Origin: Sulfuricurvum sp.
GTDB taxonomy: Bacteria; Campylobacterota; Campylobacteria; Campylobacterales; Sulfurimonadaceae
Reading direction: 5' to 3'
Assembly: GCA_030693335.1 (NCBI GenBank)
Contig: JAUYAU010000006.1
Location: forward strand, 1 to 64,000
DNA: 64,000 nucleotides
Shown here in pieces: positions 1,985 to 47,430 of this stretch. Both the position numbers and the translations under genes were made by a program. Positions within the stretch are counted from its first letter, which is position 1. Every line of letters starts with the position of its first letter. Below the pieces are notes generated by a model. That model had not been told where the DNA came from. It saw nothing but the letters and a program-made list of their open reading frames with translations, and ran no database searches.

Positions 1985-4744
1985 ATGGATTATAAAGATA
2001 CCCTCCTACTACCTCAAACACAGTTTCCGATGCGCGGAAATTTGGTTAATAATGAGCCGCAGCGCTATGCTGCGTGGATCGCCAAAGATGTTTATGGCAA
2101 GATGAAGACAAATCGCAAAGGTGCACCGACCTTTACCCTGCATGACGGTCCCCCTTATGCAAACGGACATACCCATATAGGTCATGCACTCAATAAAATT
2201 CTCAAAGACATTATTGTCAAATATAATTATTTTAACGGTAAATCTGTCCGTTTTACTCCGGGCTGGGATTGCCACGGTTTGCCAATCGAGCAGCAAGTCG
2301 AAAAAAAGCTGGGCGGAAAGCAGAAAAAAGAGCTTTTGAGCAAGGCAGAAGTGCGTAAGCTTTGCCGTGCGCATGCGAGTGAATTTGTGGATATTCAGCG
2401 TGAAGAATTCAAAAAGCTCGGGGTGATCGCAGACTGGGATAAGCCTTATTTGACCATGGACTATAAATTTGAAGCCAATATTTATCGCACACTGTGTTCT
2501 GTAGCGAAAAAAGGGCTCTTGATTGAGCGATCCAAGCCGGTTTACTGGAGCTGGGCTGAGCGTACAGCACTGGCAGAAGCCGAAGTCGAATACGAAGACA
2601 AAGAAGACTATTCGATTTATGTCGCGTTTGAGCTTTCCGATGAAGCAAAAATACGTGCAGGGATTGAAGGCAAAGCAGCAATGGTTATCTGGACGACGAC
2701 TCCGTGGACGTTACCAGCGAATACAGGTATATCTCTCAATCCTGAAGAGATCTATGTTCGCACAGGCGATGGCTACATCGTTGCAGAAAAACGGTACGAA
2801 GCGATGCTGGAAGAGGGTGTTTTCACAGGCGCCGTCGTGCAGAAAATCGAAGCGAAAAAACTGGAAAACCTGTATGCGATCAATCCTCTTAACGGTCGAG
2901 GTTCTCATCTCGTACTTGGCGAGCACGTTTTGATGGAAAACGGTTCAGGTTGTGTTCACACGGCACCGGGCCATGGTGAAGACGACTATCGCATCGGTTT
3001 GGTTTACAATCTCGAAGTAGTTATGCCGGTTGATGAAACGGGATGTTATGATAATACGATCGTCACCGAAAGATTGCTTCCGAATCCTGAAACCTTTGTA
3101 GGAACCCATATTTTCAAAGCCAATGAGCCGATTATTGAACTCTTAGGCGAGAGTGCACTAAAAGTGTCCAAATTTCGCCACTCGTATCCACATTGCTGGC
3201 GTTCACATACGCCTTTGATTTTTCGTGCAACGAAACAATGGTTTATCAGTGTCGATGGTACTCCTGATGGTGAATCCAAGACGCTTCGTGAAATCGCATT
3301 GGGCGAAGTAGCCAAAACCGCTTTCTATCCTGAAACAGGTCGTAATCGTCTCAATGCAATGGTTGAAAACCGTCCGGATTGGTGTATCTCCCGTCAACGT
3401 GACTGGGGTGTTCCGATCGCGCTTTTCCGTGTCAAAGAGACAGGTGAAGTGATTTTGGATGAGAAAGTACTCAATTTTATCGCTATGATCTTTGAGATGC
3501 GTGGAAGTGATGCATGGTATTCTATGAGTATCGCTGAGCTTCTTTATCCTGGATGTCCTCATAAAGCGGACGACTTGGAAAAAGTAACCGACATTTTGGA
3601 TGTATGGTTTGACAGCGGTTCGACATGGAATGCGGTACTCAAATCACGTAATTACGATGCGGGAACGTATCCGGCTGATCTTTATGTTGAAGGTTCAGAC
3701 CAGCATCGCGGTTGGTTTCAGTCATCACTTTTTTTAAGTACGGCAGTTGAACACATTGCACCGTATAAAGCACTTTTGACCCACGGATTTACCGTCGATG
3801 AAAAGGGCGAAAAAATGTCCAAGTCAAAAGGCAACGTTGTTGCACCTGACAGTGTTTTAAAAGAATATGGTTCTGAAATTTTACGCCTTTGGGTTGCGAT
3901 GAGCGATTATCAAGGGGATCTTAAAATTTCAGGCAATATCCTGAAGCAGACATCAGAGCAGTATCGAAAACTGCGTAATACCTTCCGTATTATGTTGGCA
4001 AATATCGATGGACTAGAATCTATCGTACCGTACAGTGAAATGGGTGAAATCGATAAATGGATCGTAGCAAAAGCCAAAGAGGTTTTTGATGAAACGCATA
4101 GATTGTTTGGCGAATATAATTTTGTTCACGGGATGAGCGGTTTGAATTATTTCATTGTGAATGAACTCAGCGGTGTTTACATCGATATTACCAAAGACCG
4201 TATGTATTGTGATGCTAAAGAGTCGATCGAACGTCGTTCAAGTCAGAGTGCTATGGCAATCATCGCCCGCTCGATGCTGGGACTTATTGCACCGATTTTG
4301 ACTTACACGGCCGATGAGATTTTTGAGAATGCTCCTGCGGTTATCAAAGGGGATGCAATCGATATTTTTGACATTACCTACAGCTCTATTGACCCAGTAG
4401 AAAGTGACTGGGACTATGCAATAGTGAGTGTTGTCCGTGAAAAGTTCAATGAAATCGTTGATGGATTGAAAAAAGAGAAAGTCATTAAAAACACGCTTGA
4501 ATTGGTTATTTCAACAAAATCAACGTGTGCGGCATCTGCTAAAAAAGAAGATATCGAAGAGTTTTTGGTTATCTCTAAATGGTGTGCATGCGAATTAAAT
4601 GATGTTTTAGGAAGCTTTGAAATAGCGGGTGATGCGTTTAACATAGCGCGGGCAACCAAAGCAAAATGTCCGCGTTGTTGGAAATACCACAGCGTAGACG
4701 AAGAGACAGTCTGTGAGCGTTGTGCATCAGTGGTGGGTGTATGA
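1985..4744 (+). CDS. ileS: Isoleucyl-tRNA synthetase
   Basis: This class I aminoacyl-tRNA synthetase charges tRNA-Ile in the cytoplasm. The 919-residue product has the HIGH signature at residues 64-67, the editing domain following it, the K-M-S-K-S loop near residue 610, and a C-terminal zinc ribbon with C-P-R-C ... C-E-R-C. The start MDYKD at 1985 is preceded by TAAGGGATGAG and gives a normal family length; the frame is open further upstream but without family similarity. It heads the long rightward operon, and its stop overlaps the next small ORF (ATGA). Confidence 0.97.
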   Translation: MDYKDTLLLPQTQFPMRGNLVNNEPQRYAAWIAKDVYGKMKTNRKGAPTFTLHDGPPYANGHTHIGHALNKILKDIIVKYNYFNGKSVRFTPGWDCHGLPIEQQVEKKLGGKQKKELLSKAEVRKLCRAHASEFVDIQREEFKKLGVIADWDKPYLTMDYKFEANIYRTLCSVAKKGLLIERSKPVYWSWAERTALAEAEVEYEDKEDYSIYVAFELSDEAKIRAGIEGKAAMVIWTTTPWTLPANTGISLNPEEIYVRTGDGYIVAEKRYEAMLEEGVFTGAVVQKIEAKKLENLYAINPLNGRGSHLVLGEHVLMENGSGCVHTAPGHGEDDYRIGLVYNLEVVMPVDETGCYDNTIVTERLLPNPETFVGTHIFKANEPIIELLGESALKVSKFRHSYPHCWRSHTPLIFRATKQWFISVDGTPDGESKTLREIALGEVAKTAFYPETGRNRLNAMVENRPDWCISRQRDWGVPIALFRVKETGEVILDEKVLNFIAMIFEMRGSDAWYSMSIAELLYPGCPHKADDLEKVTDILDVWFDSGSTWNAVLKSRNYDAGTYPADLYVEGSDQHRGWFQSSLFLSTAVEHIAPYKALLTHGFTVDEKGEKMSKSKGNVVAPDSVLKEYGSEILRLWVAMSDYQGDLKISGNILKQTSEQYRKLRNTFRIMLANIDGLESIVPYSEMGEIDKWIVAKAKEVFDETHRLFGEYNFVHGMSGLNYFIVNELSGVYIDITKDRMYCDAKESIERRSSQSAMAIIARSMLGLIAPILTYTADEIFENAPAVIKGDAIDIFDITYSSIDPVESDWDYAIVSVVREKFNEIVDGLKKEKVIKNTLELVISTKSTCAASAKKEDIEEFLVISKWCACELNDVLGSFEIAGDAFNIARATKAKCPRCWKYHSVDEETVCERCASVVGV

Positions 4745-4866
4745 TCGACGTTACGCAAAGTGTGCCAATGAGTTTTATTATTGAAACGATTGGCGTTATT
4801 TTCGCAGTTATAGCGGTTGGTATTTTAATGGTCAGATATGCAAAACGAACAAAGGAGAACAGATGA
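4741..4866 (+). CDS. 41-residue single-pass membrane protein between ileS and gatA
   Basis: The ATG overlaps the ileS stop (ATGA at 4741-4744), and the TGA at 4864-4866 overlaps the gatA start, so the frame is locked between two essential genes. The product has a short polar N-terminus (MIDVTQSVP), a hydrophobic helix of about 22 residues ([16 protein letters not shown]) and a basic tail ([10 protein letters not shown]). That predicts a single-pass inner-membrane protein with a cytoplasmic C-terminus. A GGTGGG sequence just upstream can serve as ribosome binding site. From memory, a small gene also lies between ileS and gatA in C. jejuni. Its function is not known to me. Confidence 0.7.
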
Positions 4867-6203
4867 TTACCTTAAAAGAAGCGTTGAAGCTCTCTAAAGA
4901 GGAGATTGTTGCCCTCAAAGAAGAACTCAAAGAAAAAATTGCGGCGTATTCAGAGCTTAACGGTTACATTGATGTTGAAAACATCGGTGAGGGAATTCCC
5001 ATCGCGATCAAAGATAACATCCAAGTGCAGGGCTGGTCGGTAACGTCGGGATCGAACATTCTCAAAGGGTACATCGCACCCTATAATGCAACGGTTATTG
5101 AAAAACTTATTGAAAATGGATTGAGTCCCTTTGGCCGCACGAACATGGATGAATTTGCGATGGGTTCTACGACGGAGAGCAGCTGTTATGGTAAAACGCT
5201 TAACCCACGTAATCACAATTGTGTCCCAGGCGGAAGTTCAGGCGGATCGGCGGCGGTAGTTGCAGCAGGTTTGGCGATTGCGGCATTGGGAAGCGACACG
5301 GGCGGATCGATTCGTCAGCCTGCAGCGTTTTGCGGAATTGTCGGGATGAAACCGACTTATGGCCGTGTAAGCCGTTATGGTTTGGGTGCGTATGCAAGTT
5401 CTCTTGACCAAATCGGACCGATGACTCAAAATGTCGAAGATGCTGCGATTTTATATGACATGATTCAAGGGCACGATCCACGAGACTCTACCAGTGCCGA
5501 TCGTAATGACGGGATGGTTAGTGATAAATTGGATGCGAACGTCAAACTTAAAATTGCCATTGTTCCTGAATATGTCAAAGATGCTTCTTTGGATGTACGA
5601 AAAGCATATACAAAAGCAGTAGAAGCACTCAAAAACGCAGGGCACACGATCATCGAAAAAACACTGATGGATCCAAAGTACGATATTTCAGCCTATTATG
5701 TCACTGCAACGGCGGAAGCTACGACAAACCTTGCACGTTATGACGGTATTCGTTACGGAAACCGTGTTGAGGGTGATAATCTCAAAGATACTTTTTTACA
5801 AACGCGCTCACAGGGTTTTGGTCCTGAAGTACAGCGCCGTATTATGTTGGGGAACTTCGTTCTCTCCTCTGGATATTACGATGCGTATTATGTCAAGGCA
5901 CAAAAAGTACGCTCGTTGATCCAAGAAGAGTATAATAAGATTTTTGAAGAAGTAGATCTCATCTTGACTCCCGTAGCTCCTCGTACAGCGTATGAGTTTG
6001 GTGCTTTGAATGATCCTCTTGAGATGTATTTGAGCGATATTTATACAATTTCGGTCAACCTTGCTGGACTTCCGGCAATTTCGCTACCTGTCGATACGGC
6101 AGAAAATGGTATGCCTGTAGGGCTTCAGCTTATCGGTGCTGCGTATGCAGAACAAACTCTATTTAACGGGGCTTTGAGTCTCGAAAACCAATTGAAAGGA
6201 TAA
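4863..6203 (+). CDS. gatA: Aspartyl/glutamyl-tRNA amidotransferase subunit A
   Basis: GatA is the amidase subunit of GatCAB. It releases ammonia from glutamine to convert Glu-tRNA(Gln) and Asp-tRNA(Asn) to the amidated forms, which Campylobacterota need because they lack some direct synthetases. The 446-residue product carries the amidase-signature triad: Lys50 in G-I-P-I-A-I-K-D-N, the G-G-S-S-G-G-S loop, and the catalytic serine in [10 protein letters not shown] strong AAAGGAG lies eight bases before the ATG, inside the small upstream ORF. GatB and GatC are not in this window. Confidence 0.96.
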
Positions 6204-7652
<1,449 letters not shown>

Positions 7653-27907: not shown

Positions 27908-30900
27908 ATGAGTATCCCTCCATTTACCCATCTGCATTTGCATACCGAATATTCCCTACTTGACGGCGCCAATAAAATTTCGGCATTGGCGGCGCGGGTC
28001 AAAGAGTTGGGGATGACGTCGGTGGCGATGAGCGATCATGGGAACATGTTCGGAGCGATCGATTTTTACCATCAGATGCGCGATGCGGGGATCAAACCGA
28101 TCATCGGAATGGAAGCGTATATCCATAACGGTGAAGAGCTGGGGGATAAGAGCATCAAACAGCGTTTTCACGTCTGTTTGTTTGCCAAAAACGAGGTCGG
28201 ATATAAAAATCTGATGTATCTCTCCTCTCAAGCCTATATCAACGGCTTCTATTACTTCCCCCGTATCAACAAACAACTCCTTCGTGAGAACAGCGAGGGG
28301 ATCATCTGCACCTCTGCGTGTTTGCAGGGTGAAGTCAACTGGCACCTCAATCTCAACAGTGAGCGCAATGTCAAAAATGGGGCGTTAGGATACGATGAGG
28401 CTAAGCGTATCGCGCTGGAGTATAAAGAAATGTTTGGGGATGATTTCTATCTGGAGATCATGCGTCACGGGATCGCGGATCAGCTCTTTATCGATGAACA
28501 GGTGATTCGTATCTCTCAAGAGGCTGGGATTAAACTCGTCGCGACCAACGACACCCACTACACCTTTCCGGGTGATGCACAGTATCATGAAGCATTTATG
28601 TGCATCGGGATGAATAAACTGTACGATGATCCCAAGCGTATGCGCCACTCGGTTCATGAATTTTACGTCAAATCGCCTGAGCAGATGGCACTGTTGTTTG
28701 CCGATATTCCTGAAGCGCTGTATCATACACAGGAGATTGTCGATAAGTGTCAGCTCGAGCTTAATCTAGGCAATCCTACTCCTCCCAATTTTAAATTCAC
28801 CACCGAATATGCCCTCGAAGAGGGATTGGTTATCGAAGAAGATTCTGAATACTTTATCCACCGTTGCCGTGTCGGTTTGGAAGAGCGACTCAAACATGTT
28901 CCGCAGGAACGATTCCAAGAGTATCGTGATCGCCTCGAGTTCGAAATTGGGGTCATCAATCAGATGAAATTTCCGGGCTACATGCTCATCGTTTGGGATT
29001 TCGTCCGTGAAGCCAAACGTATGGGGATTGCTGTAGGACCCGGGCGCGGATCGGCAGCGGGGAGTCTGGTAGCGTACAGTTTGGAAATCACCGACATTGA
29101 TCCGATGAAATACGATTTGCTCTTTGAGCGTTTTCTCAATCCTGAGCGTGTGTCGATGCCCGATATTGATATGGACTTCATGCAAGCACGCCGTGGTGAG
29201 ATTATCGACTATGTGGTGCGTAAATACGGACGGGAGCAGGTAGCGCAGATCATTACCTTTGGTTCGCTGTTGGCCAAAGGGGTTATACGTGACGTCGCGC
29301 GTGTTTTGGACATGCCGCTTTCTCAAGCGGATATTATGGCAAAATTGATCCCTGATGAGTTGGGGATCACCCTCAATGGGAAAACCAAAGGGGGCAAAAC
29401 AGAAGACGGTGCCTACCAAAAAGAGCCGAAGATTCGAGAACTCATTGAGGGTGACGCGAGCGCGATGCGCGTTTGGGAATTTGCTAAAAAACTCGAGGGT
29501 CTAAAGCGCAATGCGGGGATGCACGCGGCGGGTGTTGTTATCTCCAACGAGCCGCTGTGGAAAAAAACCCCTATTTATAAACCCTCGGGGGAAGAAAACT
29601 ACATAACGCAGTATTCGTTGAACTATCTCGAAGACGTTGATTTGATCAAATTCGACTTCTTGGGACTCAAAACCCTCGACGTTATCGACAGTGCTATCAA
29701 GCTGATTAAAAACCGCTATGAAAAAGAGGTCGATTGGCACGCCATCGATGAAAATGATCCTGAAGTGTACAAGGTGATCCAAAGCGGTGACACGATCGGA
29801 ATGTTCCAAATCGAGAGTTCGGGGATGCAAGACCTCAATAAACGCCTTAAGCCCAGTTCCTTTGAAGACTTGATTGCGGTCTTGGCACTGTATCGTCCGG
29901 GACCGATGGAATCTGGGATGCTGGATGACTTTATCGAGCGTAAACACGGACGTCAAGCGATCACCTATACGTTCCCTGCGATGGAAGCGATTCTCAAACC
30001 CACCTACGGGGTCATCGTTTACCAAGAGCAGGTTATGCAGATTGTTCAGACGATCGGCGGATTCAGTCTAGGCTACTCGGATATTATCCGTCGAGCCATG
30101 GGTAAGAAAAAAGATCTCTCGGCGTACAACGATGAGTTTAGCCAAGGGGCGGCTAAGCAGAACTTGGACTATAAAAAAGCCTCCGAACTCTTTGACCTGA
30201 TTGAAAAATTTGCAGGATACGGATTCAACAAATCCCACTCCGCTGCGTATGCGATGATCACGTTTCAAACAGCATGGCTCAAAACCTACTATCCGCAAGA
30301 GTTTATGGCGGCATTGTTAACGAGTGAAAAAGACAATACCGACAAAGTGGTGAAATACATCGATGAAGCCAAACGGATGAAGATCTTTTTGGGAGCACCC
30401 GATATCAACCACTCACAGCTAGAATTCTCTGCCATCAACAAAGACGGCCAAGATCAGATACTTTTTGGTCTAGGGGCGATCAAGGGGGTTGGAGAGGCGG
30501 CAGTCGAATCGATACTCGAAGCCAGAACTGAGGGTGAATTCAAAGACATACAGGATTTCATCAACCGCATAGAACCTCAAAAAGTAAACAAACGGGTGAT
30601 CGAATGCATTATCAAAGCGGGGGGATTGGACAGTTTTGGCTACTCACGCCGTGCACTCTTGGAGCAAGTAGAGATGATGGTGGAGACCGCTAAAAAAAGT
30701 TCTACACTTCAAAAAGATGCACAATTCAGTCTCTTTGGGGATGATGACGAGGTTATGACGGTTGAGTTAAGCCTCAAAAACTATGAGGAATACGATCTCA
30801 AAGCGCTCTTGGAGTTTGAAAAAGAAACGTTGGGCTTTTATGTCTCAGGTCACCCCCTTGATAATTTCCGAGAGGCGATTGACAGTATCAACTATACGTT

Positions 30901-31432
30901 GTCATCCGAATTGGAAAACATCGCGGATGGATCGAGTGCGATTTTCATTGGAAAAGTCGAAGAGATCAAGGTGAAAATGTCGAAAAAAGGGTCACAGTTT
31001 GGACTGGTCAGTCTCATGGACTTTCACGGCAATATCGAGATGATGCTCTTTACGGACAAGCTCGAACAGCTCGAAAAAATGGATCAAGATGAACCCATCG
31101 CATTCAAGGTCAAAGTAACCCATACCGAAATGTTCACCCGTATCAGCGTTACGAAGATCATGACGTTAGCCGAAGCGAAAAAAGAGGCGAAAAAAGTTGA
31201 AACCAAAATTGTCGAAGCACCGCAAGAGCCTCTTGTATTGCGCATCCGATTGAGTGACAATCTCGAACCGCTTGAAAAACTTTATACGCTTGTTCGCCGC
31301 AATCCCGGACGCCGCGCGATCAAACTGATCATTGTCTCAAAACTTGCCGATGTTCTGATTGATTCGGCGATACGGGTAGATAACAAGGTGCTTGAAGAAT
31401 TAAGCGGTTTAGAAAATGTGGATGTGATATGA
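27908..31432 (+). CDS. dnaE: DNA polymerase III alpha subunit
   Basis: This is the replicative polymerase subunit. The 1174-residue product starts with a PHP domain (H-L-H-T-E-Y-S-L-L-D-G-A). The family C polymerase core has the catalytic pair in P-D-I-D-M-D-F near residues 418-422 and a third Asp region in K-F-D-F-L-G-L. The helix-hairpin-helix part (G-L-G-A-I-K-G-V-G) and a C-terminal OB domain follow. Length and order fit DnaE1. It is followed directly by an accessory operon. Confidence 0.97.
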   Translation: MSIPPFTHLHLHTEYSLLDGANKISALAARVKELGMTSVAMSDHGNMFGAIDFYHQMRDAGIKPIIGMEAYIHNGEELGDKSIKQRFHVCLFAKNEVGYKNLMYLSSQAYINGFYYFPRINKQLLRENSEGIICTSACLQGEVNWHLNLNSERNVKNGALGYDEAKRIALEYKEMFGDDFYLEIMRHGIADQLFIDEQVIRISQEAGIKLVATNDTHYTFPGDAQYHEAFMCIGMNKLYDDPKRMRHSVHEFYVKSPEQMALLFADIPEALYHTQEIVDKCQLELNLGNPTPPNFKFTTEYALEEGLVIEEDSEYFIHRCRVGLEERLKHVPQERFQEYRDRLEFEIGVINQMKFPGYMLIVWDFVREAKRMGIAVGPGRGSAAGSLVAYSLEITDIDPMKYDLLFERFLNPERVSMPDIDMDFMQARRGEIIDYVVRKYGREQVAQIITFGSLLAKGVIRDVARVLDMPLSQADIMAKLIPDELGITLNGKTKGGKTEDGAYQKEPKIRELIEGDASAMRVWEFAKKLEGLKRNAGMHAAGVVISNEPLWKKTPIYKPSGEENYITQYSLNYLEDVDLIKFDFLGLKTLDVIDSAIKLIKNRYEKEVDWHAIDENDPEVYKVIQSGDTIGMFQIESSGMQDLNKRLKPSSFEDLIAVLALYRPGPMESGMLDDFIERKHGRQAITYTFPAMEAILKPTYGVIVYQEQVMQIVQTIGGFSLGYSDIIRRAMGKKKDLSAYNDEFSQGAAKQNLDYKKASELFDLIEKFAGYGFNKSHSAAYAMITFQTAWLKTYYPQEFMAALLTSEKDNTDKVVKYIDEAKRMKIFLGAPDINHSQLEFSAINKDGQDQILFGLGAIKGVGEAAVESILEARTEGEFKDIQDFINRIEPQKVNKRVIECIIKAGGLDSFGYSRRALLEQVEMMVETAKKSSTLQKDAQFSLFGDDDEVMTVELSLKNYEEYDLKALLEFEKETLGFYVSGHPLDNFREAIDSINYTLSSELENIADGSSAIFIGKVEEIKVKMSKKGSQFGLVSLMDFHGNIEMMLFTDKLEQLEKMDQDEPIAFKVKVTHTEMFTRISVTKIMTLAEAKKEAKKVETKIVEAPQEPLVLRIRLSDNLEPLEKLYTLVRRNPGRRAIKLIIVSKLADVLIDSAIRVDNKVLEELSGLENVDVI

Positions 31433-31439
31433 AGATTGC

Positions 31440-31445
31440 TATAAT
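31440..31445 (+). promoter_or_regulatory. -10-like element of the ATPase-DUF4276-Phd operon
   Basis: TATAAT lies eight bases after the dnaE stop and 47 bases before the ATPase ATG, with a strong GGAGG just before that start. The operon can thus be expressed apart from dnaE. No clear -35 box or palindrome is visible. Confidence 0.5.
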
Positions 31446-31492: not shown

Positions 31493-32575
31493 ATGAAAAT
31501 CAATGCTATTACGATAAAAAACTATAAGTCGATTAGCGAGATAGATGAGCTCCCACTTACTGACTTAAATGTTCTTATCGGTGCAAATGGTGCTGGAAAA
31601 TCGAATTTTATTTCTTTTTTCAAAATGCTTAATATGATTATTGAAAAGCGTTTTCAAGAGTATGTAAAAGTTGGAGGTGGTGCGGATAGTATTTTGCATT
31701 TTGGTTCAAAACATTCATCTGAAATATATGCAAAAATAGATTTTCATAACAACGCCTATAGCTTTCATTTAAAACCAACAGATCAAGATACACTTTTTTT
31801 TGCTGAAGAAGCAACTCCGTATATCGGAGCAAATGTAATTGGTAGAGTGAATGATGAAACAAAGCTTTTTGAAACAAAAGGTTCAAAAGTTAGAGGTTCT
31901 AGTTATAAAGGTGTTTCTGATCACGTAATTGATGCTTTACAGTCTTGGCAAGTTTATCACTTTCACGATACGAGTTCAACAGCCGGAGTCAAAAAAACCT
32001 GCGAAGTTTCGGACAATAAAAAACTTCGTCCTGATGCTTCGAATCTTGCAGCTTTTTTATATTTGCTCAAAGAAAAATATCCTGATAGCTTTTTTATGAT
32101 AGAAGAAACAATTAAATTAATTGCTCCATATTTCGATCGATTTGTTTTAGGACCTGATGCTCTAAATACAGAAAAAATACGCTTGGAATGGCGTGAAGTT
32201 GGAAGTGATCATTATTTCAATGCTACGCATCTATCGGATGGAACGTTACGTATGATTTGTTTGGCAACATTGCTATTACAGCCAAATGCTCCTGATACAG
32301 TTATTATTGATGAACCTGAACTTGGGCTGCACCCTTATGCAATCACCGTTTTGGCAAGTTTGATGAAAAGTTTTGCGGTAGATAAGCAATTGATCGTTTC
32401 AACTCAATCTGTTACTCTGATAAATCATTTTGAATCGAAAGATATTATTGTCACTGATAAATCAAAGGGTGCCTCACATCTTAGGAGGCTCGAAATTGAT
32501 GAATTAAAGGATTGGATAGAAGAATATTCTTTAGGTGAAATTTGGGAGAAAAATATCATTGGTGGTACGCCATGA
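31493..32575 (+). CDS. SMC/OLD-like AAA ATPase, first gene of a putative defence operon
   Basis: The 360-residue protein begins with the AAA_15/AAA_21 pattern I-K-N-Y-K-S-I. It has Walker A G-A-N-G-A-G-K-S at residues 30-37, the ABC-like signature L-S-D-G-T-L near residue 247, and Walker B V-I-I-D-E-P-E-L-G-L-H-P near residue 270, then S-T-Q-S. There is no fused TOPRIM nuclease; the next gene may supply it. Such ATPases drive many two-gene phage-defence modules, but a role here is inference. It is more AT-rich than dnaE, and its stop overlaps the next start (ATGA). Confidence 0.85.
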   Translation: MKINAITIKNYKSISEIDELPLTDLNVLIGANGAGKSNFISFFKMLNMIIEKRFQEYVKVGGGADSILHFGSKHSSEIYAKIDFHNNAYSFHLKPTDQDTLFFAEEATPYIGANVIGRVNDETKLFETKGSKVRGSSYKGVSDHVIDALQSWQVYHFHDTSSTAGVKKTCEVSDNKKLRPDASNLAAFLYLLKEKYPDSFFMIEETIKLIAPYFDRFVLGPDALNTEKIRLEWREVGSDHYFNATHLSDGTLRMICLATLLLQPNAPDTVIIDEPELGLHPYAITVLASLMKSFAVDKQLIVSTQSVTLINHFESKDIIVTDKSKGASHLRRLEIDELKDWIEEYSLGEIWEKNIIGGTP

Positions 32576-33195
32576 AAAAAGTGTTGGTATTAGTCGAAGG
32601 ATTTACCGAAAAAAGATTTGTAGAAGATATTTTAAAGCCTTATTTCCAAGATAAAGGGATTTTTGTAATAGCACGAAATTTAAAAGGTGTTGGAAATTAT
32701 GGGATTATTAATAAAGAAGTTAACAATCTCCTAAAGGATCCGAGTGCTACGTTAGTGACGACGATGATAGATTATTATCGATTGCCCAGTGATTTTCCGC
32801 AAAAACAACATATAAATCAACAATTACATAGTTCTAAGAAAGTAGAAGTTTTAGAAAATGCTTTTGGGGTAGATATCCGGAATCCAAAGTTTCTACCATA
32901 TTTACAACTGCATGAATTCGAGGCATTACTTTTTAGTGAAGTTTCCCATTTTTCAAAAGTTTTATCGACAAAAAGTCATGTTTCCCATTTTGAAAAAATA
33001 GTTCAAAATTTAGAACCTGAAGAGATAAACGATCAACCGAACACGTCGCCAGCGAATCGTATAAAAAATATATTTCCTCAGTATCAAAAAGAATCGCATG
33101 GCGCAATTCTTGTGAAAGCAATTGGATTGGAGAAAATGAGAGAAAAATGTCCTCATTTTAACCAATGGATCGAAACGTTGGAAAATTTATTATGA
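32572..33195 (+). CDS. DUF4276 protein, TOPRIM-like partner of the ATPase
   Basis: The 207-residue protein has the DUF4276 landmarks: V-E-G-F-T-E-K-R-F-V-E near the N-terminus (the acidic first TOPRIM-like motif), T-M-I-D-Y-Y-R-L-P-S-D-F-P in the middle, and L-Q-L-H-E-F-E-A-L-L-F. The family usually lies next to an AAA ATPase and is thought to be TOPRIM-related, so a nuclease role is plausible though not shown. Start 32572 overlaps the ATPase stop, and the end overlaps the Phd-like gene by four bases. Confidence 0.82.
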   Translation: MKKVLVLVEGFTEKRFVEDILKPYFQDKGIFVIARNLKGVGNYGIINKEVNNLLKDPSATLVTTMIDYYRLPSDFPQKQHINQQLHSSKKVEVLENAFGVDIRNPKFLPYLQLHEFEALLFSEVSHFSKVLSTKSHVSHFEKIVQNLEPEEINDQPNTSPANRIKNIFPQYQKESHGAILVKAIGLEKMREKCPHFNQWIETLENLL

Positions 33196-33452
33196 CACTT
33201 TTGAGTGCTTCCGACCCACAACTTGATTTCGAAAACCTAATCGAGCAAGTCACACTGACAAATGAACCAATTTTTATCAGTGGGAATAACAACCAAACTG
33301 CTGTTTTGATCTCAGAGACAATGTGGGAAGAGATTCAAGAACGCATGGATACGATGATAGCCGATCAGCCTATAAATGAGCTTAAAAGCGGAAAGAGTGA
33401 GGTCTATACGCTTGAGGAAGTGATGCAAAAATTAAATTTAGACAAAGAGTAA
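33192..33452 (+). CDS. Phd/YefM-like antitoxin, third gene of the ATPase operon
   Basis: The 86-residue product resembles Phd/YefM antitoxins in N-E-P-I-F-I-S-G-N-N-N-Q-T-A-V-L-I-S-E-T-M-W-E-E and in its short C-terminal helix. The N-terminus is atypical (M-T-L-L-S-A-S-D-P-Q-L-D-F-E-N-L). No RelE, Doc or YoeB-like toxin follows; the next gene is the housekeeping apeB, four bases on. The ATG overlaps the DUF4276 stop (ATGA), so it is made as part of the ATPase-DUF4276 unit. Its partner is unknown. Confidence 0.7.
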   Translation: MTLLSASDPQLDFENLIEQVTLTNEPIFISGNNNQTAVLISETMWEEIQERMDTMIADQPINELKSGKSEVYTLEEVMQKLNLDKE

Positions 33453-33455
33453 ACA

Positions 33456-34694
33456 ATGCGTGAATTTAACGAAAAACTAATTCAATTTATCGATGCCTCT
33501 CCAACGCCGTTTCATGCTGTGGAACAAATGGTGATTGAGTTGGATACCGTTGGGTATCAAAGACTCAATGAATCGGAAAAATGGGATTTACATGATGGAA
33601 TGGGTTATTACGTCACACGCAATGATTCGTCAATCGTCGCATTTACCTATCCTCCCTATTTTGATAAAGGGTATACCATTGTTGGAGCGCATACCGATTC
33701 TCCTCATTTGCGTCTCAAACCCAATCCTGTGACTAAAAGTGCCGGTATGACACGTTTTGGGGTGGAAATGTATGGCGGGGTGTTGCTTAATCCTTGGTTT
33801 GATCGTGATTTGAGCCTCGCAGGTCGGATTGTCTATTTGGATGAAACGGGTACGCGGTGTGAAAAACTCATCGATATCAAACGTCCTATCGGTGTGGTTT
33901 CATCACTTGCGATACATTTGGATCGTGAGGCAAACTCAAATCGTTCTATTAACGCACAAACCGATATTGTTCCGATGATGGCGTGCGGGGAAGAATTTGA
34001 TTTTGAAGCCTGGATACTAAGTGAAGCGGGCGAGAACGAGGGAAAATTATTGGCCCATGAGCTGAGTTTTTACGATGTCCAAAAGGGGTCGTTTATCGGT
34101 ATCAATAATGAGTTTGTGACGTCTGCACGTCTGGATAATCTTTTGAGCTGTTATGTAGGATTGCAAGCCCTTATTCATACCAATGACCCGATGATGCTAG
34201 CATGTATGGATCATGAGGAAGTTGGTAGTGACTCACATGTAGGAGCAGGGGGAACCTTTGTCGAGGAGGTGCTTCGCCGTATTGCCGGTGAAGATTTTTC
34301 TACTCTTATGCGTCAATCGCTGATGGTATCGTGTGACAATGCCCATGCACAGCATCCAAATTTTCCCTCAAAACACGAGAGTGAGCATGCTCCGCTGTTG
34401 AACCGAGGCGTTGCTATCAAAATCAACTCCAATCAGCGCTATGCGACATCCGCACGGACGATGGGGCGGTTTGTTCAATGTGCCCAAGCGATCACTGTTG
34501 CAACGCAAACATTCGTAACGCGCAGTGATATGGGGTGCGGATCGACAATCGGCCCCATCAGCGCAACGCGTTTAGGGGTAGAAACGATCGATGTGGGTGT
34601 CCCGACACTGGCAATGCACTCGATACGAGAGTTGGCAGGGAGCGAAGATGCTTACGGTTTGTATCTAATTCTTCTGCATATTGGTGAAGTGTAA
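33456..34694 (+). CDS. apeB: M18-family aspartyl aminopeptidase
   Basis: The 412-residue cytoplasmic metallopeptidase removes acidic N-terminal residues from peptides. Zinc-site motifs are visible: G-A-H-T-D-S-P-H-L-R-L, D-H-E-E-V-G-S (with catalytic and metal Glu), and the C-terminal M-H-S-I-R-E. N-P-W-F-D-R-D-L-S is also typical of the family. It begins four bases after the accessory antitoxin gene and overlaps flgS by one base. Confidence 0.92.
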   Translation: MREFNEKLIQFIDASPTPFHAVEQMVIELDTVGYQRLNESEKWDLHDGMGYYVTRNDSSIVAFTYPPYFDKGYTIVGAHTDSPHLRLKPNPVTKSAGMTRFGVEMYGGVLLNPWFDRDLSLAGRIVYLDETGTRCEKLIDIKRPIGVVSSLAIHLDREANSNRSINAQTDIVPMMACGEEFDFEAWILSEAGENEGKLLAHELSFYDVQKGSFIGINNEFVTSARLDNLLSCYVGLQALIHTNDPMMLACMDHEEVGSDSHVGAGGTFVEEVLRRIAGEDFSTLMRQSLMVSCDNAHAQHPNFPSKHESEHAPLLNRGVAIKINSNQRYATSARTMGRFVQCAQAITVATQTFVTRSDMGCGSTIGPISATRLGVETIDVGVPTLAMHSIRELAGSEDAYGLYLILLHIGEV

Positions 34695-45818: not shown

Positions 45819-46369
45819 GCGATTTCCTTGCTACGGTATGCTTTTGCAAAACCTGAGAGATATTCATAGCCGGAATAGACCGTAACAGCAACTGCCATCC
45901 ACAAAAGAACATTTCCCCCATCCCAATGCATGAGTAAAAACCCAATAGCGATCATTTGGATAACGGTTTTAACTTTACCCATGAATGAAGCACTTACATC
46001 AATTCCGATTGAGATAGAGAGGGTACGCAGACTTGTGATAAACAACTCACGTCCGATAATGATATAAATTGCCCATGCCGAAGCAACACCAGCCATCATA
46101 AGACCTAAAAAAGCAGCCAAAGTGAGCATTTTATCGGCCAAAGGATCGAGAATTTGCCCGACGATGGTAATTTGATCCAGCTCGCGTGCGATGTAACCGT
46201 CAAAAAAATCGGTAACGCTGGCAAGGACAAACAGCAACGATGCGGTGTAATAGCTCCAGCTGATATGCCAGCCGTTATCGGTAAAAACTTGCGGATTGAG
46301 AATCACCCAAAACATCACCGGAGCGATGAGCAGGCGAGAGAGTGCGAGGAGATTGGGGAGATTAAACAC
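45815..46369 (-). CDS. pgsA: CDP-diacylglycerol--glycerol-3-phosphate 3-phosphatidyltransferase
   Basis: PgsA makes phosphatidylglycerol phosphate in the inner membrane. The 184-residue product has the CDP-alcohol phosphatidyltransferase motif D-F-F-D-G-Y-I-A-R ... G-Q-I-L-D-P-L-A-D-K and several membrane helices. The start is GTG at 46369 (MFNLPNLLALSR), which fits the conserved N-terminus. That codon shares one base with the hepT stop (TAGTG), so pgsA has no intergenic leader of its own here. Confidence 0.93.
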   Translation of the reverse strand: MFNLPNLLALSRLLIAPVMFWVILNPQVFTDNGWHISWSYYTASLLFVLASVTDFFDGYIARELDQITIVGQILDPLADKMLTLAAFLGLMMAGVASAWAIYIIIGRELFITSLRTLSISIGIDVSASFMGKVKTVIQMIAIGFLLMHWDGGNVLLWMAVAVTVYSGYEYLSGFAKAYRSKEIA

Positions 46370-46833
46370 TAATGGTTTCCTTTGTTTTTTATGCTTTTTT
46401 CTACATATTGCTCTATATTTTTTAATATTTGTTCAATGTCACTAAAAACATCTATGGCTATATGTATTCCTTCAATGACTTCATCTTCATTATTTGGGTA
46501 TTCATGCGTTAATTTATTTCTGAGTTTGCGATATTCCATCCATTTTGATGCATCGCCAATAATCTCAAATTTTTCTAGCTTGTCTAACACATCGAGCAAA
46601 GACATCGTATCATTGTATTCACCCAACTCATCTAAAAAGAATTTAAATAATTTCTCACCCATCATATCTTGAAGCTTAATAAATCGGTAGATAAAAGTAT
46701 CAATGGTTTTGATTTTTTCAAAATCTTCAAACAGTTCACAATCCAAACCATTTGGCCAGTTCTTGATTTCACTACGTGCAGATTTTGCACGGTTCAAATG
46801 GAGCTTTGTTTTTTCAATAATATCATTTATCAT
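46369..46833 (-). CDS. hepT: HepT-like HEPN toxin
   Basis: The 154-residue helical protein carries the HEPN RNase motif R-N-K-L-T-H-E-Y (Arg105, His110, Tyr112), the exact R-x4-H-x-Y form known from HepT. In studied HepT/MntA pairs the antitoxin inactivates the toxin by adding AMP to this tyrosine. The gene overlaps mntA by four bases and reaches the pgsA start codon downstream. It is AT-rich compared with pgsA. Confidence 0.88.
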   Translation of the reverse strand: MINDIIEKTKLHLNRAKSARSEIKNWPNGLDCELFEDFEKIKTIDTFIYRFIKLQDMMGEKLFKFFLDELGEYNDTMSLLDVLDKLEKFEIIGDASKWMEYRKLRNKLTHEYPNNEDEVIEGIHIAIDVFSDIEQILKNIEQYVEKSIKNKGNH

Positions 46834-47120
46834 AAAGCCACCTTAGTCTTTGATATGGTTTCATAAATGTTTTGATGCGCTTTAAAGGGTGTTTTTACGA
46901 TTAAATCTACTTTTCGAAGTATCCCGTTTAATTCGAGTTTTGTTAATATTTTAATTTCGTCTTTAATTGTTAGATTGTGATTCGTTTCTACATAAATATC
47001 GATGTCGCCACCTTTTTTTGTATCATCGGTACGACTACCAAAAAGATAAATTTTTGCATCATCGATATAGTTCGAGATTATTATTTTGATAGTATTTTGA
47101 TCCTCTATTGATAATCTCAT
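46830..47120 (-). CDS. mntA: MntA-like minimal nucleotidyltransferase antitoxin
   Basis: The 96-residue protein has the polymerase-beta-type motif G-S-R (28-30) and G-G-D-I-D-I (37-42) with metal ligands Asp39 and Asp41, plus a later acidic position in K-V-D-L-I-V-K. It is the adenylyltransferase antitoxin of the HEPN/MNT family and is translated just before hepT. No strong promoter is visible between it and the Phd-like gene upstream, so both may share one transcript. Confidence 0.88.
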   Translation of the reverse strand: MRLSIEDQNTIKIIISNYIDDAKIYLFGSRTDDTKKGGDIDIYVETNHNLTIKDEIKILTKLELNGILRKVDLIVKTPFKAHQNIYETISKTKVAL

Positions 47121-47168
47121 ACAATATCCTGATTGATTTTAGTGATTATAGCTAAATTGGGCCATAGC

Positions 47169-47417
47169 TTAGACATTTAGTTTGTCATTCAGCGAAACTT
47201 TGATCGGACTAAAGCTCTCTTCCATTCTGTTCTGTACCTCTTTGGAGAGGAGATAATCATCTAACATTTCCATGAGTTTTTCATAGGTTTTAGAGGGGAC
47301 GAGATAGGCACTGGCGACGTTGTGATTGAGAATTGCCACTACTTCTTCTCCCGCATTTTCGAGAATTTGAGTGGGTGATTTTTTGAGTTCGGTGATGCTT
47401 GCCGTGTAGTTCGCCAT
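47169..47417 (-). CDS. Orphan Phd/YefM-like antitoxin
   Basis: From ATG 47417 (MANYTASITELKKSP) the product has 82 residues; an ATG four codons earlier is also possible. T-E-L-K-K-S-P-T-Q-I-L and V-A-I-L-N-H-N-V-A-S-A-Y-L-V-P are typical of the Phd/YefM DNA-binding part. The C-terminal helix (D-D-Y-L-L-S-K-E-V-Q-N-R) would bind a toxin, yet none of the RelE, YafQ or Doc type lies next to it. The next genes downstream are mntA and hepT, 49 bases on. Confidence 0.8.
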   Translation of the reverse strand: MANYTASITELKKSPTQILENAGEEVVAILNHNVASAYLVPSKTYEKLMEMLDDYLLSKEVQNRMEESFSPIKVSLNDKLNV

Positions 47418-47430
47418 TATCGGTTGCATA

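Follow-up and report, generated by a model that had tools for sequence, protein, structure and literature searches.

Three overlapping genes between dnaE and apeB in Sulfuricurvum sp. probably represent a two-gene candidate defence module, HEC-01, in a cargo site, followed by a leftover orphan antitoxin that forms an accidental third cistron. According to this scenario, the HEC-01 pair would have been acquired into the dnaE-apeB site just upstream of the remnant of an earlier toxin-antitoxin cargo, and the junction would have fused the stop of the DUF4276 gene to the start of the antitoxin gene, leaving the latter as the third cistron of an operon to which it does not belong. The gene content, the predicted fold, the conserved residues, the lack of the Phd-like gene at other HEC-01 loci and its mosaic origin are observed directly, and the direction of this acquisition, like the nuclease activity and the role in defence discussed below, is what we infer. 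The DNA analysed (the window) is a stretch of 64,000 nucleotides from contig JAUYAU010000006.1.

The initial annotation had singled out the ATPase and its DUF4276 partner, with the third gene, as the best candidate in the window for an undescribed system, but the pair is already catalogued in PADLOC. The ATPase (Pfam AAA_21, E = 8.8e-29) matches HEC-01A (PDLC04175) over its full length (residues 2-360, E = 5.6e-147), and the DUF4276 protein encoded immediately downstream (Pfam PF14103, E = 1.3e-52) matches HEC-01B (PDLC04188), again over its full length (E = 4.2e-74). Judged by these matches, the pair is the candidate defence system HEC-01. The ATPase is of the OLD/ABC type rather than AAA+, because it combines a Walker A motif (GANGAGKS, residue 30) with an ABC signature (LSDG, 247) and a Walker B motif (DEPELGLHP, 273). 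Models of AriA from PARIS match it as well (1e-27, PADLOC); among PADLOC families at E <= 1, the DUF4276 protein is matched by HEC-01B models alone and not by those of AriB. HEC stands for Hma-embedded candidate, and HEC-06 has been named as having antiviral activity (PMC12988326). Literature searches found no paper or experiment on HEC-01 itself, and no paper on DUF4276.

The architecture of the operon was as first described, since a re-reading of the open reading frames and of the sequence returned the same three genes, strand and coordinates (Table 1), coupled by two ATGA overlaps (32572-32575 and 33192-33195). The first gene is preceded by a GGAGG ribosome site. The operon had also been credited with its own -10 box after dnaE. 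The extended -10-like word TGCTATAAT is indeed present there and is a plausible promoter judging by its sequence, but about 3.5 words of this type are expected by chance in the whole window (pattern count), and no good -35 element was found. The G+C content falls from about 0.45 in dnaE and apeB to 0.31-0.38 over the three genes, which fits the expectation for acquired DNA.

Table 1. Features of the dnaE-apeB site and antitoxin genes at the corresponding site of related genomes (positions refer to the window unless a locus is named).
Feature	Position	Strand	Remarks
dnaE	27908-31432	+	Left border of the cargo site; 84-99% identical to its counterparts in the genus (tblastn)
Extended -10-like word TGCTATAAT	31437-31445	+	5 bp past the dnaE stop; candidate operon promoter
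OLD-type ATPase gene (HEC-01A)	31493-32575	+	360 aa
DUF4276 gene (HEC-01B)	32572-33195	+	207 aa
Phd-like gene, orphan chimeric antitoxin	33192-33452	+	86 aa
apeB (M18 aminopeptidase)	33456-34694	+	Right border of the cargo site; present in 37/41 genus genomes
Chimeric antitoxin upstream of apeB	L089 2934-3368		DUF433 + Phd + another tail
Chimeric antitoxin upstream of apeB	L090 9524-9733		Another head + RelB tail
Truncated Phd upstream of apeB	L043 209-396		

An idea of the role of the DUF4276 protein came from its predicted structure. A single-sequence AlphaFold (AF2) model was uninformative (pLDDT 46), hence an alignment of 77 sequences was used, which yielded a model with a mean pLDDT of 94.2. 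Foldseek returned a single match at E < 0.001, the C-terminal region of OLD (6njw), while the top VIA-align matches were OLD 6nk8 (Z 9.3, 4.5 Å over 176), OLD 6njx (Z 8.9) and PH0156 (Z 8.8), with PARIS 8ux9 at Z 8.1 and GajA 8x5i at Z 7.2. The OLD C-terminal region spans Z 8.5-9.3, and these are moderate matches (Z 8-9 at 10-12% identity) in a comparison in which unrelated folds attain Z 6-7 (at most 6.8). On the strength of this model, the DUF4276 protein is predicted to be a Toprim-like protein with a fold resembling the Toprim domains of OLD, PARIS AriB and Gabija GajA. A profile search of solved structures brought up weak hits only (Lpg2149, E = 0.5), which were taken as chance.

The residues conserved in this family point in the same direction. 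E9, E13, D67, E115, E117 and K173 are found in 76-77 of the 77 sequences, so that the DUF4276 protein does possess the acidic site on which the initial reading depended. Nevertheless, this site appears from the alignment to be no textbook Toprim copy: of the Toprim signature (an invariant E, a G after beta2 and DxD), E9 occurs in 76/77 sequences and G39 and D67 in 77/77, but the second D of the DxD motif is Y or F in all members, and catalysis is for this reason not assured. The metal ligands in B. pseudomallei OLD are E400, E404, D455, D457, T506 and E508, with K562 in addition (PMC6755086), and E9, E13, D67, E115-x-E117 and K173 of the DUF4276 protein are spaced like E400, E404, D455, T506-x-E508 and K562. 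Both proteins have an E followed by another four residues later, a D 55-58 residues on, an x-E pair about 50 further and a K 54-56 beyond it, and it is from this spacing that we infer a residue-by-residue pairing. The suggestion that an ATPase with a Toprim-like partner recalls OLD and PARIS is thus well founded, in view of the PADLOC matches, the fold and the acidic residues. The locus adds to HEC-01 an example with a well-modelled Toprim partner, in which there are named residues to mutate.

The locus resembles HEC-01 elsewhere in that both proteins match over their full length and gene order and the -4 overlap are alike, but none of the 100 other loci studied carries an overlapping orphan antitoxin downstream. 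PARIS likewise consists of two genes, for an OLD-type ATPase (AriA) and a separate Toprim protein (AriB), but the DUF4276 protein is not matched by models of AriB, which is of the DUF4435 type, and lacks the second D of DxD. OLD and GajA share with the pair the ATPase type, the Toprim fold and similarly spaced conserved residues (PMC6755086), but are single fused proteins, whereas the pair is split and has no helicase partner. AriB of PARIS cuts tRNA (PMC12409363), and by analogy with the restraint of cutting by the ATPase in PARIS (PMC12409363, PMC12839542), the HEC-01 pair may be a nucleic-acid-cutting system held in check by its ATPase. As in PARIS and OLD, the ATPase would keep the Toprim protein inactive and sense infection; once triggered, the Toprim protein would cut DNA or RNA and halt phage growth, the metal ions for cutting possibly being held by E9/E13, D67 and E115/E117, with K173. 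In this model HEC-01 would need no antitoxin, because self-protection is proposed to be supplied by the ATPase.

The place where the pair is found is, by the gene content of relatives, a cargo site whose modules differ by genome and are often toxin-antitoxin systems. In the 21 genomes in which both dnaE and apeB were seen, the site is empty in six, apeB directly following dnaE after a gap of 8-9 bp. Filled sites contain RelBE, YefM-YoeB, DUF433-DUF5615, an unnamed antitoxin with a ParE-like toxin, a long SIR2-like protein, a RhuM-like protein and others (names without a Pfam match were assigned by sequence reading). HEC-01 was seen at the site in the window's genome only, and a search for repeats at the insertion borders returned none that were convincing. 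The SIR2-like protein, named by sequence reading, has 986 aa and is encoded at this site in another species (L079 5655-8615, minus strand).

The third gene bears the marks of this site rather than those of HEC-01. Its product matches PhdYeFM_antitox (PF02604) at residues 1-54, barely over the Pfam cut-off (E = 6.7e-8), DUF6290 at 34-81 and the RelB-like NF048017 at 39-84, which corresponds to a Phd/YefM head (approximately residues 1-53), a RelB tail (approximately 54-82) and last residues that read through the spacer preceding apeB. It has the parts of type II Phd/YefM and RelB antitoxins, but joins a head of one family to a tail of another and is not accompanied by a toxin gene, the upstream neighbour being DUF4276 and the stop falling 3 bp from apeB, a gap that rules out a toxin hidden in between. 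Within the genus, close relatives of the head (residues 1-54) were found only in G025 (locus L089) and G013 (L043), both directly upstream of apeB. Thus, it is to apeB that the Phd-like gene is linked in sister species, the linkage that the initial annotation itself had named as refuting its reading. The tail matches antitoxins beside apeB in G020, G005 and G015, where a RelE gene is next, and in G009. In an order-wide search of 399 genomes, relatives beyond the genus were of the tail only; the two with listed surroundings are both RHH-type RelB genes, one of them followed by RelE.

At the DNA level, positions 33213-33356 are 93.75% identical to L089 over 144 nt, the identity ending at both sides, and in L089 this Phd fragment sits between a DUF433 antitoxin, to whose end it is fused, and a tail unlike that of the window's gene. 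L043 is 80% identical to the head over 124 nt and then truncated. The tail, MIADQPINELKSGKSEVYTLEEVMQKLNL, is similar to the RelB tail MIADKRIDELKAGKTEVYSLEEVAQRLGL of L237. The gene ends in AAATTAAATTTAGACAAAGAGTAA, and its last 25 nt match the non-coding spacer preceding apeB in L088 and L084 as well as the antitoxin end in L090, where a similar end goes with yet another head; the matching bases look as if a RelE gene had been deleted into this spacer. Recombination between antitoxin heads and tails is visible at DNA resolution among close relatives at the dnaE-apeB site. The third gene is unlikely to be dead, because its overlap with DUF4276 is exact and its head is under purifying selection: seven of eight codon changes relative to L089 are synonymous (P about 8e-5), and 10 of 17 relative to L043. 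These changes indicate that the head has been kept as a protein for at least part of its history, although the selection may predate the chimera.

An intact reading frame with a head under purifying selection would also be expected of an orphan antitoxin that is selected, independently of HEC-01, against the RelE/YoeB-type toxins of incoming elements. Orphan antitoxins have been discussed as such anti-addiction modules (PMC7354431). The tail is like that of widespread RHH-RelB antitoxins paired with RelE, and a distant RelE with its own RelB is encoded elsewhere in the window's genome. However, this relative, only 40% identical, is the sole candidate for a cognate toxin found in that genome, and of the remaining orphan copies L043 is truncated and L089 fused, which resembles decay. 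Such a role is possible, if somewhat doubtful, and would be compatible with the gene being a leftover of earlier cargo. At most, the orphan antitoxin would bind DNA through its head or neutralize a RelE-type toxin through its tail. A second Phd/YefM-like antitoxin is encoded in the window on the minus strand (47169-47429), where it precedes a nucleotidyltransferase gene (46830-47120) and a HEPN/HepT-like gene (46369-46833), so that an MntA/HepT-like pair is joined there by an additional Phd gene (46369-47429).

The initial annotation had gone further and cast the Phd-like protein as a third member of the system, controlling DUF4276 or the operon. In its strongest form, this would mean that the protein was recruited in the window's lineage as an antitoxin or repressor of HEC-01, acting on DUF4276 or on the operon promoter. 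Phd heads are known DNA-binding autoregulators, and the exact ATGA coupling in the same direction and the selection on the head are in accord with this proposal. It is nevertheless unlikely, since the tail is a RelB tail of the RelE-binding type with nothing new to it, every part of the gene traces to the apeB site, and tblastn with the Phd protein against 100 other HEC-01 loci (L122 and L147 among them being one and the same contig) returned no relative. These loci include the nearest HEC-01 relatives, L146 (78%/63% identical) and L147 (71%/58%), in which DUF4276 comes last, with no third gene on the same strand within 120 bp. A Pfam scan of 28 of the 34 small same-strand reading frames just downstream of DUF4276 found no antitoxin, two of them being FolB and ribosomal protein L31. 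As a general third component of HEC-01 the Phd-like protein is thus rejected, and the translational coupling is real in the window's genome alone. It is similarly improbable that the junction, which would recombine several antitoxin heads (Phd, RHH, DUF433 and another) with two tail types, has had one of its chimeras captured as a working third gene of HEC-01, as a repressor or safety gene. Even with the gene taken as a leftover, there is a modest chance that it now has a role in the window's lineage, given that its overlap is exact and its head has been under selection. The locus is a caution for operon-based discovery, as what looks like a third gene of a defence operon can be an insertion-site leftover even when it overlaps perfectly.

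The pair itself is widespread but patchy. Within the phylum, 23 of the 397 genomes searched carry HEC-01A (E <= 1e-30), and relatives of DUF4276 occur across many phyla (at least 556 among 588 candidate stretches). The ATPase gene lies directly upstream of DUF4276 in 98 of the 100 other loci, with a four-base overlap in 44; the remaining two are cut by the contig end or begin inside DUF4276. A LELTWIGKDKRP protein comes right after DUF4276 in seven genome loci and on an Aeromonas plasmid. The plasmid copy has the annotation 'site-specific DNA methyltransferase', and SNF2 and WYL proteins are encoded upstream, a neighbourhood that is a defence setting. That the pair serves housekeeping repair, or is a toxin-antitoxin-like pair, rather than phage defence would agree with its scarcity on viral contigs (two loci, both distant), but has little to recommend it, given that the pair is patchily distributed, travels on plasmids, is low in G+C, lies in a variable cargo site and is found next to DNA methyltransferase and SNF2 genes. 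A link of the window's locus to a prophage or plasmid was also considered and set aside, the two viral loci being distant and the plasmid homologues (DUF4276 relatives occur in 12 plasmid records) only 31-40% identical, with no Phd in the four inspected. Decaying copies exist, HEC-01A being broken by several stop codons in L140 (G254, 5400-7134) and L113 (G232). Downstream of the pair in L146, positions 4640-5000 contain decayed scraps that by eye resemble DUF2442, a restriction enzyme and an antitoxin interrupted by a stop codon. Finally, one chromosome carries two same-score copies of HEC-01 about 18 kb apart (L128 and L120, G145:C1 926154 and 943938), the first of them set among repeated small-gene arrays.
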